Shown here in pieces: positions 36,876 to 47,471 of a stretch of 64,000 bases of DNA (the stretch's first letter is position 1; each line of letters starts with the position of its first letter). The notes under the pieces were generated by a model, which was given only the letters and a program-made list of their open reading frames with translations, searched no databases and was not told the origin of the DNA. The stretch is from Thiomargarita sp. (GTDB lineage: Bacteria; Pseudomonadota; Gammaproteobacteria; Beggiatoales; Beggiatoaceae), in the NCBI GenBank assembly GCA_020718845.1, contig DYRG01000003.1:10954-74953 (forward strand), read 5' to 3'. Both the position numbers and the translations under genes were made by a program.

Positions 36876-39800
36876 ATGAAACTTCATAGCAAAATATTTG
36901 GGGCTTCTTTAATCATTGGCACTATCCCATTGATTTTAATAGGAATTATTGCAGTTTGGCAAAGCGATAAAGCGTTGTCATATCAAACATTTAATCAATT
37001 AGAAAGCCTAAGAGAAATTAAGAAAACACAGGTTGAAGGTTATTTCTTAGAACGAAAACAAGATGTAAATAATTTATTAGAAGTCGTGGGTATGTTGTGG
37101 AAAAATGCTCTCGATAAAATGCTTGCAATCCAAGAAAACAAAAAAGGGCAAATTATAGATTATTTCAAAGAGCGCGTTGACAATTTAATTGTTATTTCAC
37201 AAAATGATGTGTATGTGCAAGGAATGATTGAATTTAATCATGCGTTTAAAGTAGAACAACATACAAATAGCGAAGCATGGTTAGCCATAGAAAATAAACG
37301 TGCTGAATTTTTAAGAAAAATAGCTAAACAATATAATTTTCATGAATGGTTATTTGTTTCTCCAGAAGGTGACGTTGTTTTTTCAGCGAAAAAAAGTATT
37401 TTACTTGGAAAGAATCTCTTAAAAACCGATCTACAAATAAATGCTTTAAAAAATGCTTTTGAGAAAAGTCTAAAAAGTGAACAAGTTATAGAAGATTTTA
37501 GTTTTGATCCTGTGTATGAAAAACATTTGGCACACTTTAGTGCACCGTTTAAACATCAAGGTGAATTAGTGGGCGTTTTAATTATGTCGATTACGCCAGA
37601 AAAAATCAATGAAATTATGCTTAATGTTGATCATATGGGAAAAACAGGTGATAACTATTTGGTGGGTAGAGCAAATGATGGAAAAACCTATTACCGTAGC
37701 GATCGACGTACCACTGTAAAAGATGCTTTTGGAAAATTAAGAACTTCTGCACAAATAGAGCAAGCCTTTATGGGAGAAACTGCCATTGGTGTTAGAGTAA
37801 ATATGGCTAATAAATTGGCGTTATTTATTAACTCACCTTTGCAAATATACGGTTTAAATTGGGTTGCAGCAACCACATTTGAAATGGAAGAAGCAATCAC
37901 GCCAAAACAAGAGAACAACCAAGATTTTTTTAGTAATTATATTAATCGTTATGGTTATTATGATTTACTCTTGGTCGATCCAAAAGGAAAAATATTTTAT
38001 ACAACTAAACGGGAAATTGATTATGAAGCAAATTTATTTGAAGGAACTTTAGCCAATAGTCATTTAACAAAACTCATAAAAAGAATTATTGAAGAAAAGA
38101 CGTTTGCGATGAGTGATTATGCGCCTTATGAACCTTCACAAAATCGTCCTGTTGCTTTTACTGCAAAACCCCTATTATCCTCTAAAGGAGAAGTGCAAAT
38201 TATCGTTGTACTTCAAATGCTTGATGATGCGTTGAATAATCTAACTCAGCAACGCGAAGGCTTAGGAAAAACGGGTGAAGTTTATTTAGTAGGAAATGAT
38301 TATTTAATGCGTTCAAATTCGGTTTTAGACCCAAAGAAACATTCTATAGAATACTCTTTTAAACATCCAGAAGATGGTCAAGCAAAAACACCTGCAGTTG
38401 AAATGGCTTTGAAAGGAGAAAAAGGTAAAATTATTACCACGAATTACGCTGGAAATACGGTATTATCTGCTTATACACCTATCAAAATAGAAAACTATCA
38501 ATGGGCATTAATTGCAGATATAGGTAAAGATGAAGCATTTGCTGCTGTTTTTGAATTAAAACTCTTAACAACAATGATTGGAATTTTTGTTATTTTTATC
38601 ATTTGGTTTTTAGCAAGAAAATTTACGCAACAATTAGTAACGCCTCTCTCTGCAATTAATAATCAACTGAGAATTTTATCGCAAGGAAAACCCACGAAAG
38701 AACTCTTGCAATATCACGGTAAAGATGAAATTGCAGAAATTGTTTGTTCAACAGAGCAACTTAAAACAGGAATTCGTGGAACAATTGAGCAAGCAAAAGC
38801 GATTGCAGATGGTAATTTTAATAATGATGTAAAACTCCTTTCAGATCAAGATGAAATGGGGCAAGCATTAACTGAAATGACGAGAACTTTACGCGGCGTT
38901 ATTTTGCAAGCAAATGCGATTGCAGCGGGGGATTACAATCGTGAAGTAAAATTGCTCTCGGAAAGCGATGAATTAGGTCGAGCATTATTAGAAATGACAC
39001 GACGGTTGCGCGATATTACAAATAACAATCGCCAAGCATTAGAACAACTAGAACAAGAAAATGCGCGTAAAAATGCTCAAGATTGGTTGAAAACGGGGCA
39101 AACTCAATTAAGTGAAACCATGAGCGGAGATTTGGATTTACCAACGCTTTGCAAAAATATTGTAACCTTTTTAGCACGTTATTTAGAATGCCAAGTTGCA
39201 ACCTTTTATATATTACATACGCCTGATTTGAATAAAACCCAACCTCATTTGAAATTGATTGCAACTTATGCGTATAAAAAACGTAAAAATATTAGTAATG
39301 AGATTGCAATTGGTGAAGGTTTATTAGGACAAGCAGCATTAGAAAAAGAAATCATCGTTGTTACACAAGTGCCAGAAGATTATGTCATTGTTCAATCAGG
39401 TTTAGGTGAAAGAACGCCGCATAATTTAGCAATTGTGCCTTTCTTATATGAAAATAATTTGAAAGGGGTATTTGAACTCGGTGCATTTAAACCTTTTAGT
39501 GAAATGCAATTGGATTTCTTGCAACAAGTCACGCCCGCAATTGCAATTGCAGTAAATACTGCTGAATCAAGAGTGCGTTTGCAAGAATTATTACAACAAA
39601 GCCAAACGATGGCAGAAGAATTACAAAGCCAAACAGAGGAACTTCAAGCCCAACAAGAAGAACTTCGTCAAACAAATGAAGAATTAGAAGAACGTAGTCG
39701 TGAATTAGAACGCCAAAAAGAGTCGATTAGAATTAAAAACCAAGAATTAGAGAAAAATCGGATTGAAGTTGAAAGAAAAGCTAAAGAACTTGAGGTTGCA

Positions 39801-41879
39801 AATCAATACAAATCTGAATTTCTTGCGAATATGTCGCATGAATTGCGTACCCCATTGAATAGTATGCTAATTTTGGCACAAATGCTCGCAACAAATAAAG
39901 ATAAGAACTTAACAGAGAAACAAGTTGAATTTGCTCAAACTATTCATAAAGCTGGCACTGAGCTTTTAGTATTAATTAACGATATTTTAGATTTATCAAA
40001 AGTAGAAGCAGGTCATTTAGAGCTTCATTTTGAAGAATGCCCTTTGTTGCAAATTACCGAATCGTTGAGTAGAAAATTTTCTCACATGGCGGAGGATAAA
40101 GGGTTAAATTTTGTGATTAATATTGAGAAATCTTTAGAAGAAACCTTAATTTATACTGATTCTCAACGCTTACAACAAGTGATTACAAATTTACTTTCTA
40201 ATGCGTTTAAATTTACCGAGAAAAGTGGGCAAGTTACTTTAAAAATTCGTCGCCCCGATTTTAATACAAATCATTTGTCTGCGCAAAGCAGTATTATGAT
40301 TAGTGTGATAGATTCTGGAATTGGAATTCCTAAAGCAAAACAGCATTTGATTTTTGAAGCATTTAAACAAGCAGATGGAACAACCAGCCGTCGTTATGGT
40401 GGAACAGGTTTGGGTTTGTCGATTTCTCGTGAATTAACGCGATTGCTAGGTGGTGTTTTAAATATTGAAAGCGAAGAAGGGGTTGGAAGTACCTTTAGTT
40501 TAACGATTCCAAATCGGGTTACAAAATCAATCAATTATGATGAAAAACAACATATCAAATCTATATTAAAATCACCAGCAAGTTCATCTAAAATTTTAAT
40601 GGATGAAACGCCGCCTGTTGAAATGCCTCCCACTATTTCAGAACCACCTAAATTTGAATCAAAAATTAGTGAAGATGATCGTGATAATATTCAAACGGGT
40701 GATCGAGTGTTATTAATTATTGAAGACGACATTCAGTTTGCTCAATTAATTCAAGACCTTGCGCACGAAAAAGATTTTAAATGTGTATTGGCACATGATG
40801 GAAAAATGGGATTAGAACTTGCCAAACAATATCAACCAAATGCAATCATTTTAGATATAGGTTTGCCATTGGTAGATGGTTGGACAGTAATGGATCGTTT
40901 GAAAACAGATGCTCAAACACGACATATTCCCGTGCATTTCATGTCGGGAGGAGATATTGCTCAAAGTCGTGATGCCAGACAAATGGGTGCAATTGGTTAT
41001 TTACTCAAACCCGTGAGTATGACAGAGTTAAGCAATGCGTTTAAGAAAATAGAGCATTTTATCGATCATGAAGTTAAACATTTATTAATTGCATTAGCAG
41101 AGCAAAATCGTCGTGAGCAAGTATTAGAACTCTTAGGGGGTGGAGAGGTTTCTACTGTTTTAGTTCATAATAGTGAAGAAGCCTATCAAAAGCTACATAG
41201 CACAACCGTCGATTGCATTGTTTTAGATATTGATTTTGATGAAGGACGCGGTTTGAAAATGTTAGAGCAACTGCGCTCTGATGAGGATTTGAGTTTAATT
41301 CCAGTGATTATTTATACTAATCGTGAATTAACTTCTATAGAAGAACAACGTTTAGCTCAAAATGGGGAAGATTTGACTTTAAAAGCCGTGCATTCTCCAG
41401 AACGTTTATTAGATGAAGCGACATTATTTTTGCATCAAGTTGAATCAAAATTACCTAAAGAACAACAGCGCATTTTGAAAATGATTCACGATAAAGAAGC
41501 GATTTTAAATAATAAAAAAGTGCTGTTAGTCGATGATGATGCGAGAAACGTTTTTTCTTTAGGCGCAACGTTAGAAGAAAAAGGCATGGAAGTTTTAATT
41601 GCAAAAGACGGCACGCAAGCCATTAAACTATTAGAAGAAAATCCTAACACAGATTTGATTTTAATGGATATTATGATGCCGCGCATGGATGGATATGAAA
41701 CGATGCGTAAAATTCGTTCACAAGCACGGTTTCGTAAATTACCGATTATTGCTTTGACCGCCAAAGCAATGAAAGGGGATCGCGTGAAATGTATTGAAGC
41801 GGGAGCAAATGATTACATGGCAAAACCACTAGAAACAGAGAAACTTCTTTCTCTGATGCGGGTTTGGTTATATCGTTAG
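36876..41879 (+). CDS. large hybrid sensor histidine kinase (Cache-HAMP-GAF-HK-REC-REC-REC)
   Basis: This 1667-residue inner-membrane sensor has a first membrane segment at about 8-29, a very large periplasmic region with two Cache-like sensing units (about 30-350 and 360-555), and a second membrane segment near 567-585. HAMP and two HAMP-like repeats follow (IADGNFNNDVKLLSDQDEMG; IAAGDYNREVKLLSESDELG). A GAF domain (about 750-905), a long Glu/Gln coiled coil, HisKA with SHELRTPLNS (His988) and HATPase_c (NLLSNAFKF, DSGIGIP, GGTGLGLSIS) come next. Three REC domains end it: the first (about 1277-1395; LIIEDD, LDIGLP) and third (about 1548-1665; LLVDDD, LMDIMMP) have the expected acidic residues, and the middle one is divergent. 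No Hpt domain is present, so a separate phosphotransfer protein is expected. It lies 2 bp from the adaptor gene, an unusual pairing. Confidence 0.93.
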   Translation: MKLHSKIFGASLIIGTIPLILIGIIAVWQSDKALSYQTFNQLESLREIKKTQVEGYFLERKQDVNNLLEVVGMLWKNALDKMLAIQENKKGQIIDYFKERVDNLIVISQNDVYVQGMIEFNHAFKVEQHTNSEAWLAIENKRAEFLRKIAKQYNFHEWLFVSPEGDVVFSAKKSILLGKNLLKTDLQINALKNAFEKSLKSEQVIEDFSFDPVYEKHLAHFSAPFKHQGELVGVLIMSITPEKINEIMLNVDHMGKTGDNYLVGRANDGKTYYRSDRRTTVKDAFGKLRTSAQIEQAFMGETAIGVRVNMANKLALFINSPLQIYGLNWVAATTFEMEEAITPKQENNQDFFSNYINRYGYYDLLLVDPKGKIFYTTKREIDYEANLFEGTLANSHLTKLIKRIIEEKTFAMSDYAPYEPSQNRPVAFTAKPLLSSKGEVQIIVVLQMLDDALNNLTQQREGLGKTGEVYLVGNDYLMRSNSVLDPKKHSIEYSFKHPEDGQAKTPAVEMALKGEKGKIITTNYAGNTVLSAYTPIKIENYQWALIADIGKDEAFAAVFELKLLTTMIGIFVIFIIWFLARKFTQQLVTPLSAINNQLRILSQGKPTKELLQYHGKDEIAEIVCSTEQLKTGIRGTIEQAKAIADGNFNNDVKLLSDQDEMGQALTEMTRTLRGVILQANAIAAGDYNREVKLLSESDELGRALLEMTRRLRDITNNNRQALEQLEQENARKNAQDWLKTGQTQLSETMSGDLDLPTLCKNIVTFLARYLECQVATFYILHTPDLNKTQPHLKLIATYAYKKRKNISNEIAIGEGLLGQAALEKEIIVVTQVPEDYVIVQSGLGERTPHNLAIVPFLYENNLKGVFELGAFKPFSEMQLDFLQQVTPAIAIAVNTAESRVRLQELLQQSQTMAEELQSQTEELQAQQEELRQTNEELEERSRELERQKESIRIKNQELEKNRIEVERKAKELEVANQYKSEFLANMSHELRTPLNSMLILAQMLATNKDKNLTEKQVEFAQTIHKAGTELLVLINDILDLSKVEAGHLELHFEECPLLQITESLSRKFSHMAEDKGLNFVINIEKSLEETLIYTDSQRLQQVITNLLSNAFKFTEKSGQVTLKIRRPDFNTNHLSAQSSIMISVIDSGIGIPKAKQHLIFEAFKQADGTTSRRYGGTGLGLSISRELTRLLGGVLNIESEEGVGSTFSLTIPNRVTKSINYDEKQHIKSILKSPASSSKILMDETPPVEMPPTISEPPKFESKISEDDRDNIQTGDRVLLIIEDDIQFAQLIQDLAHEKDFKCVLAHDGKMGLELAKQYQPNAIILDIGLPLVDGWTVMDRLKTDAQTRHIPVHFMSGGDIAQSRDARQMGAIGYLLKPVSMTELSNAFKKIEHFIDHEVKHLLIALAEQNRREQVLELLGGGEVSTVLVHNSEEAYQKLHSTTVDCIVLDIDFDEGRGLKMLEQLRSDEDLSLIPVIIYTNRELTSIEEQRLAQNGEDLTLKAVHSPERLLDEATLFLHQVESKLPKEQQRILKMIHDKEAILNNKKVLLVDDDARNVFSLGATLEEKGMEVLIAKDGTQAIKLLEENPNTDLILMDIMMPRMDGYETMRKIRSQARFRKLPIIALTAKAMKGDRVKCIEAGANDYMAKPLETEKLLSLMRVWLYR

Positions 41880-42612: not shown

Positions 42613-43044
42613 ATGGAACTGGTAGAAAAAATTAAGTTTATGCGGATGTTTAGAGGATGGTCGCAAGAAGAAATGGCTGAAAAATTAGATATGACGCTAG
42701 GCGGATACGCAAAACTTGAACGCGGAGAGACTGATATAAATTATTCTCGACTACAACAAATTGCTAACATACTTGGCATTGATTTAGTTCAACTTATTGA
42801 ATTGAACGATAAAAATGTTTTTAATGTAATTGGCAATCATGATGATTTAAATAAAAAAAACCAAAAAATAATAAATTACTATTCATTAGAATCTTCTGTA
42901 AATTATTATTCACTGGATTTGCCTGAAACGAAAAATAAAGTAGAAGAACTTTCTCATATTGTAAAACAGCAAATGCAAGAAATTGATCATTTAAAAATGC
43001 TCATCAATTTAATGCAAAAAGAATTTAAATCCGCACTAAAGTAA
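42613..43044 (+). CDS. XRE-family HTH regulator with coiled-coil tail
   Basis: The N-terminal Cro/C1-type helix-turn-helix (about 6-62; KIKFMRMFRGWSQEEMAEKL, GYAKLERGETDINYSRLQQIA) is followed by a polar linker and a C-terminal coiled coil (about 105-140) likely to dimerise the protein. At 143 residues it has no peptidase or ligand domain. TAGGAG precedes the ATG. The divergent secreted-protein gene is the obvious candidate target. The gene is AT-rich. Confidence 0.9.
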   Translation: MELVEKIKFMRMFRGWSQEEMAEKLDMTLGGYAKLERGETDINYSRLQQIANILGIDLVQLIELNDKNVFNVIGNHDDLNKKNQKIINYYSLESSVNYYSLDLPETKNKVEELSHIVKQQMQEIDHLKMLINLMQKEFKSALK

Positions 43045-43086: not shown

Positions 43087-44607
43087 CTAGGGTTTTAACA
43101 TATTAACCAACGTGTGAGGAAAGTTGTTTGCTTCCATGTCACGAATGGTTTTGTCGATGGGGTAATCTAAGCATTTGAAATGGATTTTATTTTCAGTGCG
43201 ATCAAATATTGCAAATTGTGCTCCCAATTGACGATTGCGAGGTTGACCAATTGAACCAGGGCAGACTAATGAATGAGAAAAACGAGTTAAATCAAGGGTT
43301 TCCTGAACATAAAACTGATCAGACACACCAGTAATTCTGCCATACATTCCGGGTAAATGTGTATGCCCATGAAAACAAAGGCTTATTTTACGATTTTCTA
43401 AGGTATCTAAATTGCGCTCATACGTCATTTCATACACATACGCATAGAAAAACAGCGGATCAATTGGCGAACCATGCACCGCTAACCATTGATCATTCAA
43501 TAACATAGGCGGCAAATTTTCCAACCATTGACGATGTTCGGCGTTCACTTGGGTCATATTCCAATTCAATGCCCATTGTGCGGTTTTTGAAAAACCTTTG
43601 GTAAATTCCCCTGTTGCTAATCCGTGATCATGATTGCCTTTAAGAATCACTAACCCACTGTTTTGTAAGCGTTCGATACATTGAACGGGGTGCGGTCCAT
43701 ATCCAACGACATCGCCTAATACAACGCCTTCAGTGATATTTTCATTTCTCAAATAGGTTAAAACGCATTCTAAAGCGGGCAAATTCGAATGCACATCCGC
43801 TAATAAAGCGATGAATCTTTGAGAGTTTTTAGGCGGCTCAGATCGAGTTTTTGCTTGACCTCGCATTAAGGTATTTACTAACGCATTTAACAAATGTATT
43901 TTGGTTTCTGGAATAAAGACGTTTCTAATAAGTTCAGCTAAAACGGTGAAATATTGTTGTCCAAAGAATTTTAAAATCAATTCTCGCAAACATCCGCCGA
44001 GTTCAGCGCAGGATTCTTCGGTCAACCAAGGCAAACCCCGCAAATACACGCCAAGTGCTTGTGCTGCCGACAAAAAACAATCCCAGTTGTACACATCATC
44101 GTCGAGATAATAAATTTGACCATCTTTTGCAAGCCCAAAATTAGATAATCCTTCATCTAATCTTAAATTGTGAATGGTCGCAACATTAAAATACATCCGC
44201 CAAATTTTCTCTAACCAATCAACAGCTTCGGAGGAACTTTGCGTAGGATTGTTTAATAAAGAATGCAATGGTTTTAATAAAGGACAAATGCTGCCAATTA
44301 AAGCCTCGCCATCTTCTTGCGGAGCGGCAACAAACCACGTTTTGGTTGGAAAATGAATATTTAAAACTCGTTCTTTTTCAATCGCTTGCGCAACCCAACG
44401 CAACGCAGATTTTTCATCAAAATGAAGTTCAGCTCGAATCTTTAAAATGTTATGATCATCAATATGTAAGCGCGTGTGCGGACGACCCGTAAAAACTTGT
44501 CCATGCTCTAATGCGACTTGTGGTAACGTTAGTAATTTTTCAATGTTTTCAATATGATAGGGCGAGTCGCCAGCGATTGCACCCATCAAAGTAATGTTGT
44601 ATTGCAT
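43087..44607 (-). CDS. kinase-like domain fused to calcineurin-type metallophosphoesterase
   Basis: The C-terminal half (about 262-506) is a complete metallophosphoesterase of the YfcE/MJ0936-like type: D271-x-H273 in LLADVHSN, GD in VVLGDVVGYGP, GNHD at 324-327, AVHGSP and FHGHTHLP. The N-terminal half (1-255) is not annotated easily but has features of a protein kinase/aminoglycoside kinase fold: a Lys in ILKIRAE (K56), a catalytic-loop-like IHNLRLDEGLSNFGL (about 145-159) and a metal-site-like YYLDDD (167-171). If that reading is right, opposing kinase and phosphatase activities are fused in one cytoplasmic protein. The substrate is unknown. It is divergent from scpA; GAGAG precedes the ATG. 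Confidence 0.85.
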   Translation of the reverse strand: MQYNITLMGAIAGDSPYHIENIEKLLTLPQVALEHGQVFTGRPHTRLHIDDHNILKIRAELHFDEKSALRWVAQAIEKERVLNIHFPTKTWFVAAPQEDGEALIGSICPLLKPLHSLLNNPTQSSSEAVDWLEKIWRMYFNVATIHNLRLDEGLSNFGLAKDGQIYYLDDDVYNWDCFLSAAQALGVYLRGLPWLTEESCAELGGCLRELILKFFGQQYFTVLAELIRNVFIPETKIHLLNALVNTLMRGQAKTRSEPPKNSQRFIALLADVHSNLPALECVLTYLRNENITEGVVLGDVVGYGPHPVQCIERLQNSGLVILKGNHDHGLATGEFTKGFSKTAQWALNWNMTQVNAEHRQWLENLPPMLLNDQWLAVHGSPIDPLFFYAYVYEMTYERNLDTLENRKISLCFHGHTHLPGMYGRITGVSDQFYVQETLDLTRFSHSLVCPGSIGQPRNRQLGAQFAIFDRTENKIHFKCLDYPIDKTIRDMEANNFPHTLVNMLKP

Positions 44608-46316: not shown

Positions 46317-46724
46317 ATGGCTTTAGTGGTTTGGAACGATAATTTTAGTGTGCAAGTTGCAGAAATAGATACGCAACATCAAAAACTTATTGCGATCATC
46401 AACGAATTAGACGACGCAATTAAAGCAAATCATAGCAACGAAGCATTAGGTCAAGTTTTAGCGGAATTATTAGATTACACTAAAACCCATTTTGAATATG
46501 AAGAAAACCTTTTATCTTCAAATGGTTATCCGATGTTTGATCCGCACAAAGCAGAACACGATGCTCTCGCCGAGAAAGTCGTTTTTATGGGCGACATCTT
46601 TGCAAAAGGTCAAAACATCGACAGTGGACAATTAATGAACTTCCTTAAATTCTGGATCGAGGAACATATCCTTGAAATCGACAAAAAATATTCCTCCCAT
46701 TTACATAGCAAAGGCGTGCATTAA
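46317..46724 (+). CDS. bacteriohemerythrin
   Basis: This is a single-domain hemerythrin, a four-helix protein with a non-heme di-iron site that binds oxygen. The iron ligands are visible: His in EIDTQHQKL (about 21), His and Glu in THFEYEENLL (about 57 and 61), two His in DPHKAEHDAL (about 75-80), and His/Asp in EEHILEIDKKYS. The 135-residue length is typical. AAGGAGG precedes the ATG. It probably serves oxygen storage or delivery, or sensing, in a microaerophilic lifestyle. It is a single gene followed by a long hairpin. Confidence 0.95.
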   Translation: MALVVWNDNFSVQVAEIDTQHQKLIAIINELDDAIKANHSNEALGQVLAELLDYTKTHFEYEENLLSSNGYPMFDPHKAEHDALAEKVVFMGDIFAKGQNIDSGQLMNFLKFWIEEHILEIDKKYSSHLHSKGVH

Positions 46725-46803: not shown

Positions 46804-47058
46804 ATGAAAACAATTACTATCGAAGTCGAAGATAACTATTGGTTAGAAATATTAAATCTAATCAAAACATTTCCTATCAAAATCATCGAAGAAAAAAACA
46901 CTGATTCAACCCTAAAAATTCCTCACAAAACACCTTCAACTGAGGGAGAAAAAATATTAGCTATTTTACAAAAAACGGGTTTCTTGGGAAGTATGCCAGA
47001 TGTTGCTAATTTATCAGAAAATTACAAAGATTATTTGGATTGGAGCGATAAAACATGA
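46804..47058 (+). CDS. antitoxin of PIN-type toxin-antitoxin pair
   Basis: The 84-residue protein starts MKTITIEVEDNYWLEILNLIK, a beta-strand/helix pattern typical of small antitoxins, and ends with an acidic tail (SENYKDYLDWSDKT) suited to toxin binding. Its stop overlaps the PIN gene start (ATGA), the classic antitoxin-toxin arrangement. DNA-binding type cannot be assigned with confidence. Confidence 0.78.
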   Translation: MKTITIEVEDNYWLEILNLIKTFPIKIIEEKNTDSTLKIPHKTPSTEGEKILAILQKTGFLGSMPDVANLSENYKDYLDWSDKT

Positions 47059-47471
47059 TCATTACTGATAGTGGGTTTTGGGTTGCTCTGGTTAATCCTA
47101 ATGATACGCATCACCAAAGTGTAATTCAAACCTTAACTAAAATTACCGAACCATTGATTACAACCTATCCCGTTCTTACTGAAGTTTGTCATTTGTTGCT
47201 CAAACGACGTGGTAGAAAATCAATGTTATCTTTTATGGAAAGTTACCAACAAAATGCTTTTAGTATTTTTCAAATAGAACCGCATCATAAACAAAAACTT
47301 TTTATTTTAATGCAACAATATATTGATTTACCAATGGATTTTGCCGATGCTTCTTTAGTTTTATTAGCCGAACACTTAGGACATGGTAGAATTTTAAGCA
47401 CTGATCAACGCGATTTTAATACTTATCGTTGGAAACAAACTAAACCATTTGAAAATTTATTGTTTTTGTAA
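47055..47471 (+). CDS. PIN-domain toxin (VapC-like)
   Basis: The 138-residue PIN ribonuclease has the four acidic positions: D in MIITDSGFWVALVN, E in PVLTEVCHLL, D in MDFADASLVLLAE and D in LSTDQRDFNTY. VapC toxins cut specific RNAs, often initiator tRNA, until bound by the antitoxin. It is translated in overlap with the antitoxin. It may form an accessory island with the nuclease gene 98 bp downstream. Confidence 0.88.
   Translation: MIITDSGFWVALVNPNDTHHQSVIQTLTKITEPLITTYPVLTEVCHLLLKRRGRKSMLSFMESYQQNAFSIFQIEPHHKQKLFILMQQYIDLPMDFADASLVLLAEHLGHGRILSTDQRDFNTYRWKQTKPFENLLFL

Follow-up and report, generated by a model that had tools for sequence, protein, structure and literature searches.

AceK, PFK-2/FBPase-2, HPr kinase/phosphorylase and Pnkp are bifunctional kinase/phosphatase enzymes. 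To our knowledge, none of these pairs a protein-kinase-like fold with a calcineurin-like metallophosphoesterase (MPE), and in Pnkp, where an MPE is present, the kinase is of the P-loop type. The calcineurin-like MPEs of PF00149/PF12850 with the solved structures 3rqz, 1nnw and 3qfm have chains of approximately 245-270 aa. Small-GTPase/Roadblock modules are widespread in bacteria, and the enzymes that provide their input and output are mostly unknown. The MglA-MglB, Rup and Cvn conservon modules with Roadblock proteins were treated by Wuichet and Sogaard-Andersen (PMC4316618); that article names histidine kinases, response regulators, chemosensory proteins and c-di-GMP enzymes as signalling partners, and the terms phosphatase and phosphoesterase (searched at the start of words) are absent from its main text.

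The window analysed here, a stretch of 64,000 nucleotides of Thiomargarita sp., contains a gene in which a kinase-like domain is fused to an MPE (Table 1). What the protein has in common with 3rqz, 1nnw and 3qfm is its C-terminal half, which passes the Pfam cut-offs and carries the motifs, and to this an N-terminal kinase-like domain is added. That domain shares its predicted overall fold and a Lys-Glu-Asp-Asn-Asp order with PRPK/Bud32, WaaP, maltokinase and the APH-type AmiN, but differs from them in its DDD motif, in the attached MPE and in having no detectable profile similarity to APH or Ser/Thr kinases. The surroundings of the fusion in other genomes resemble the MglA-MglB, Rup and Cvn modules as described there, in that Robl_LC7 genes and the gene of a Ras-like GTPase stand together with a signalling protein of kinase type; the partner is, however, a kinase-like/MPE fusion rather than a histidine kinase, response regulator or similar protein. 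The likeness to AceK and the other bifunctional enzymes holds only if both halves are active. No description of a kinase-metallophosphoesterase fusion of this kind was found in the portion of the open-licence PMC literature that was searched. The new part would be the enzyme architecture; the GTPase/Roadblock module is of a type already known.

Table 1. Positions of the fusion gene, its domains and predicted catalytic residues, and the adjoining genes in the window.
Feature	Position	Strand	Evidence or remark
Kinase-like/metallophosphoesterase fusion, complete gene, 506 aa	43087..44607	-	ATG 44607, stop TAG 43089-43087
Kinase-like domain, residues 1-258	43834..44607	-	AlphaFold2 model, Foldseek and VIA, conservation
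K56, predicted ATP-binding lysine, strand 53-58	44440..44442	-	61/61; DSSP
E79, predicted alphaC glutamate, helix 65-82	44371..44373	-	60/61; DSSP
Catalytic-loop-like D151-EGLS-N156, directly before strand 157-159	44140..44157	-	D and N 61/61; model
Metal-site-like D169-D170-D171, where DFG would stand, directly after strand 165-167	44095..44103	-	61/61, 61/61, 59/61; model
Metallophosphoesterase domain, about residues 265-506	43090..43815	-	Pfam, PDB profile search, Foldseek, conservation
HTH regulator gene, neighbour of the fusion	42613-43044		
scpA, divergent from the fusion gene	ATG 44654, or alternative in-frame ATG 44594		

The open reading frame had been picked out in an earlier note made from the sequence of the window, and it is a real, complete frame; that note had missed that it lies on the minus strand. 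Within the translated frame, K56, the segment LDEGLSNFGL (150-159) and the segment YYLDDD (166-171) are located where they had been placed. A search of the genome showed that the fusion gene is present as a single copy. Two other features of the window were observed. A hybrid sensor kinase of 1667 aa, with dCache, HAMP, GAF, HisKA and HATPase domains and three receiver matches, is encoded a little before the fusion at 36876-41879 (+). At 46317-46724 (+) and 46804-47471 (+) there is a gene for a hemerythrin-domain protein and, behind it, a small ORF with a PIN-domain gene, the latter two arranged like a VapBC toxin-antitoxin pair.

Residues 265-506 form a calcineurin-like metallophosphoesterase, with phosphatase activity predicted from its sequence. 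Residues 266-471 match Pfam Metallophos with 45.3 bits (cut-off 21.5) and Metallophos_2 with 42.5 bits (cut-off 27), both above the curated thresholds. The earlier claim that all five MPE motifs are intact was borne out: these are D271-x-H273-x-N275, G298-D299, G324-N325-H326-D327, H378-G379 and G414-H415-x-H417, and all are invariant in the 61 aligned fusions with the exception of D327, which is kept in 60 and is a Glu in one. The nearest solved sequence to the family profile in the PDB is 3rqz (E 3.5e-52), followed by 2gju and 1nnw, and every match of the whole-family profile with E <0.001 is confined to the MPE half. Foldseek with the full-length model adds 3qfm (SapH/Spr1479), a streptococcal protein titled asymmetric Ap4A hydrolase and phosphodiesterase; the likeness of the MPE half to a SapH-type Ap4A hydrolase is one of fold similarity to this structure only.

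Homologues covering both halves were found at six named loci in the contig collection. The fusion is present in 23 of 42 genomes of the order, where 25 match, two of them (G027 and G030) by the MPE part alone, and in 14 of the 369 genomes sampled from the class, where 48 match and the remainder have the MPE only. Across 398 genomes of the phylum the profile of the N-terminal domain matched 34; of 29 loci examined from this search, 27 are full-length fusions, one (L143) has an in-frame stop and one (L152) is ended by the end of its contig. The stop in L143 (genome G597) falls inside the kinase-like half, and this copy is possibly a pseudogene or the product of a sequencing error. Both loci were excluded from the alignment, together with five duplicate loci, which left 61 sequences. 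The apparent N-terminal extensions of L040, L041 and L044 were rejected, as the ORFs appear to have been called too long in GC-rich DNA. No stand-alone N-terminal domain was seen among the loci read. The eight loci on viral contigs are all MPE-only with 26-31% identity, and none of 113 plasmid records matched at 80% coverage, the 20 matches listed all being to the MPE half.

The most distant group in the alignment is only 33-39% identical to the window protein. K56, D151, N156, D169 and D170 are nevertheless kept in every sequence, E79 and S155 in all but one and D171 in all but two, so the loss of kinase-like residues in homologues that might have spoken against the proposal was not seen, and the conservation of these residues exceeds chance. 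The proposed order and spacing also held, with distances of +5 from D151 to N156 and +13 from N156 to D169. These equal the distances between D166, N171 and D184 of PKA.

Comparison of profiles did not connect the domain to any known family. Pfam scans of residues 1-258 in seven members returned no credible family and no kinase at E<=10, and APH (PF01636) was likewise not matched at this threshold; the window gene is not among the APH matches of its own genome (G000). Among the motifs of PF00069-type kinases, there is no conserved HR before D151, DDD replaces DFG, and no APE-like motif is found among the conserved positions. Searching the PDB sequences with the profile of the domain gave three matches (E 0.11-0.38), none of them a kinase. 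With hhalign, the 61-row alignment reached a probability of 0.2% against an APH profile and 1% against a Pkinase profile; with the profiles of GTPase, c4, ODP, rb2 and the MPE half of the family itself, the probability did not exceed 9.4%. The APH and Pkinase profiles were built from the same order (28 rows from 30 loci and 25 from 30, respectively), after L208 and L217 had been dropped beforehand from the former and L252, L267, L270, L272 and L280 from the latter; the aim was to retain matches comparable in length and with complete flanks, and some of the dropped loci could have stayed. As the positive control, APH against Pkinase, reached just 13%, the kinase comparison by hhalign is a weak one. 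The missing profile-profile support from APH and Ser/Thr-kinase alignments would thus place the domain far from both. A sequence beyond the reach of kinase profiles, with DDD instead of DFG and without a conserved HRD histidine, could belong to a pseudokinase-like sensor of ATP or another ligand, which would control the MPE allosterically and leave the phosphatase as the sole catalytic half. Against this, the Lys, the Glu, the catalytic Asp, the Asn and the metal Asp are all kept in 60 or 61 of the 61 sequences, which is unusual for a pseudokinase, and we consider such a sensor distinctly unlikely, ranking it after the small-molecule kinase discussed below.

The structure of the domain was predicted with AlphaFold2 from seven sequences, giving a pLDDT of 74 and a pTM of 0.67 for residues 1-258 (model m3e37eea206ae); the whole protein, also from seven sequences, gave a pLDDT of 72. 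In the domain model, residues 171-178 fall below a pLDDT of 50. According to DSSP, the strand that carries K56 is followed by the helix of E79, strands 90-96 and 102-109, a long helix (125-145), D151 and N156, a strand on either side of a short interval (157-159 and 165-167), D169 and, beyond a short unstructured segment, the two helices 181-191 and 197-214. We take this order to be beta3, alphaC, beta4, beta5, alphaE, catalytic loop, beta7, beta8, metal Asp and alphaF.

The best 50 PDB rows from Foldseek for this model are all protein kinases, with E values from 3.7e-4 to 7.3e-3 and TM-scores of only ~0.3. The top 1000 chains from Foldseek were passed to VIA-align; 998 were aligned, 866 of these with Z>=5, and the best 50 rows of the 998 are all kinase-like (protein kinases, WaaP, PRPK, maltokinase and an APH-type kinase). 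The highest Z, 7.6, was obtained with PRPK (182 residues, 6.3 A), followed by c-MET (7.5), WaaP (7.3), maltokinase (7.1) and AmiN (6.8), values which, being below 8, may reflect a chance arrangement of elements; models without a clear match give 7-8. This overlap, in addition to the negative hhalign results and the absence of a Pfam match, is what would be seen if the domain were not a kinase fold at all and the motif order and model matches were coincidental. Such a coincidence appears very improbable, as a single superfamily, divergent members included, fills both lists of 50 rows, and five invariant or nearly invariant residues stand at kinase spacing, each on the right secondary-structure element. 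The kinase or APH-like fold that had been suspected for the N-terminal half is therefore supported by prediction and structural comparison, and the unrelated fold that would have counted against it did not appear. Residues 1-258 are probably a strongly diverged, atypical member of the protein-kinase-like superfamily, which would be catalytically competent and bind ATP through K56.

The fold cannot discriminate between a kinase of proteins and one of small molecules, because both score equally well in VIA. The main rival to a protein kinase is that the N-terminal domain is an APH/WaaP-like metabolite or nucleotide kinase and the MPE a phosphodiesterase or hydrolase of the Ap4A-hydrolase type, the two making and breaking a soluble signal that is read by the GTPase/Roadblock module. 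In the model, D169 is followed after only about 12 residues by the next helix (181-191), a span shorter than the activation segment of Ser/Thr kinases; the VIA rows include WaaP, maltokinase and AmiN, and the MPE resembles SapH. However, hhalign to APH was negative, and c-MET, RIPK1, BRAF and PRPK score as well in VIA as the small-molecule kinases do. On balance, we regard a small-molecule kinase as rather unlikely.

The connection to small GTPases and Roadblock proteins was missed in the earlier note and emerged from the genome context of the homologues. Genes were called in the neighbourhoods, grouped into clusters and looked for with profiles, and Pfam scans were run on representative neighbours. 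The partners beside the fusion are rb1 (~135 aa), rb2, a Ras-like GTPase (~175 aa) and c4 (~340 aa). The GTPase matches Pfam Ras, ATP_bind_1 and Arf, and rb2 matches Robl_LC7; rb1 has no Robl_LC7 match in the representatives scanned and is named Roadblock-like because of its size and an hhalign probability of 66% to the rb2 family. In the set from other classes there is a GTPase, three Roadblock or Roadblock-like types, c8 (~205 aa, function unassigned) and, at six loci, a metallo-beta-lactamase of the ODP family.

In 33 of 43 neighbourhoods the fusion has a gene of a Roadblock or GTPase family no more than 1.5 kb away: 7/17 from its own order, 11/11 from the rest of the class and 15/15 from other classes. 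The 90 control loci, the surroundings of APH, Kdo and Pkinase matches in the same order, have no such gene within their 1.5-kb flanks. The 17 neighbourhoods from the order are those fetched wide out of 23, and of the other six, one (G025) is linked according to its coordinates. From other classes, 15 were fetched out of 32 genomes with a match. Within the order, 10 of the 17 have no Roadblock/GTPase family gene within 6 kb, and the window copy has no partner gene within about 11 kb. Its genome does carry these partners, apart from the fusion gene: contig C17 has a c4-GTPase-rb2 cluster, and contig C30 has rb1.

The fusion and rb1 also occur together. Within the order, rb1 is present in 23 of 42 genomes, in each with a best E of <=4e-53, and these are the identical 23 that carry the fusion; by genus it is present in 18 of 25, again the same 18. 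If the labels were independent, the chance of this identity would be 2e-12 for the genomes and 2e-6 for the genera, values in which kinship is uncorrected. In the class sample rb1 (E<=2e-42) is found in 14/14 fusion genomes versus 3 of the 355 others (G217, G278 and G400), with six further genomes left uncounted because their rb1-like matches are weak (E 4e-9 to 1e-13). As three of the 369 genomes have rb1 without the fusion, rb1 can exist and work on its own. Forty copies of rb1 from genomes with the fusion were compared with the three from genomes without it, and no Ser, Thr, Tyr or His is restricted to the fusion-bearing genomes: T41, T87, T90 and H92 are retained in all three fusion-free copies, and T109 is Ala in one. 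No phospho-site can therefore be named, since no such residue of rb1 tracks the fusion.

The closeness of the family to Ras-like GTPase and Roadblock genes suggests that the fusion may switch those systems by reversible phosphorylation. We give roughly even chances to the proposal that an atypical kinase and an MPE in one chain are functionally part of a Ras-like GTPase/Roadblock module and reversibly modify one of its components, with the activities and the substrate predicted from conserved residues and gene context. The N-terminal domain would phosphorylate a component of the module, most likely rb1 or the GTPase, and rb1 is the first substrate candidate because of its co-occurrence and adjacency. 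The MPE domain would take the phosphate off the same target, or would hydrolyse a related nucleotide signal, and the balance between kinase and phosphatase could be set by the nucleotide state or the binding of the GTPase/Roadblock complex. More tentatively, the fusion may represent a new bifunctional family, an atypical protein-kinase-like domain with a calcineurin-like phosphatase, that is dedicated to the reversible phosphorylation of bacterial Ras-like GTPase/Roadblock switches. If true, bacteria would have, in a single gene with two activities, a counterpart to the way eukaryotes link protein kinases and phosphatases to small GTPases. With its conserved halves and its co-occurrence with a Roadblock-like partner in several groups of one phylum, the fusion is a concrete candidate for a missing signalling enzyme of these modules.

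Several other genes recur in these neighbourhoods. The c4 protein (e.g. L002:9118-10152 (-)) has no Pfam match and is found with the GTPase and rb2; its cluster spans 22 loci, and it is regularly the fourth component of the module. Outside the class, the ODP-family metallo-beta-lactamase inside the Roadblock/GTPase cluster (L162:7474-8220 and five similar loci) hints at a redox or oxygen input. At two loci of the order, from two species, the neighbour of the fusion is a different, Arf-like GTPase-domain protein of 524-525 aa with the GTPase domain at its N-terminus (L006:4314-5888 (-) and L064:9653-11227 (+)). The C-terminal half of these proteins bears a weak resemblance to the catalytic-loop region of the fusion, but kinship is not claimed, as the hhalign probability (18%, E 1.3e-3) is not clearly above noise. 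Lastly, five genomes have, next to the fusion or rb1, a protein of ~530 aa with no Pfam or NCBIfam match in the members scanned: it flanks rb1 in the fusion-free L169 (4323-5921) and L171 (6760-8355), and adjoins the fusion in L007 (763-2319), L076 and L173.
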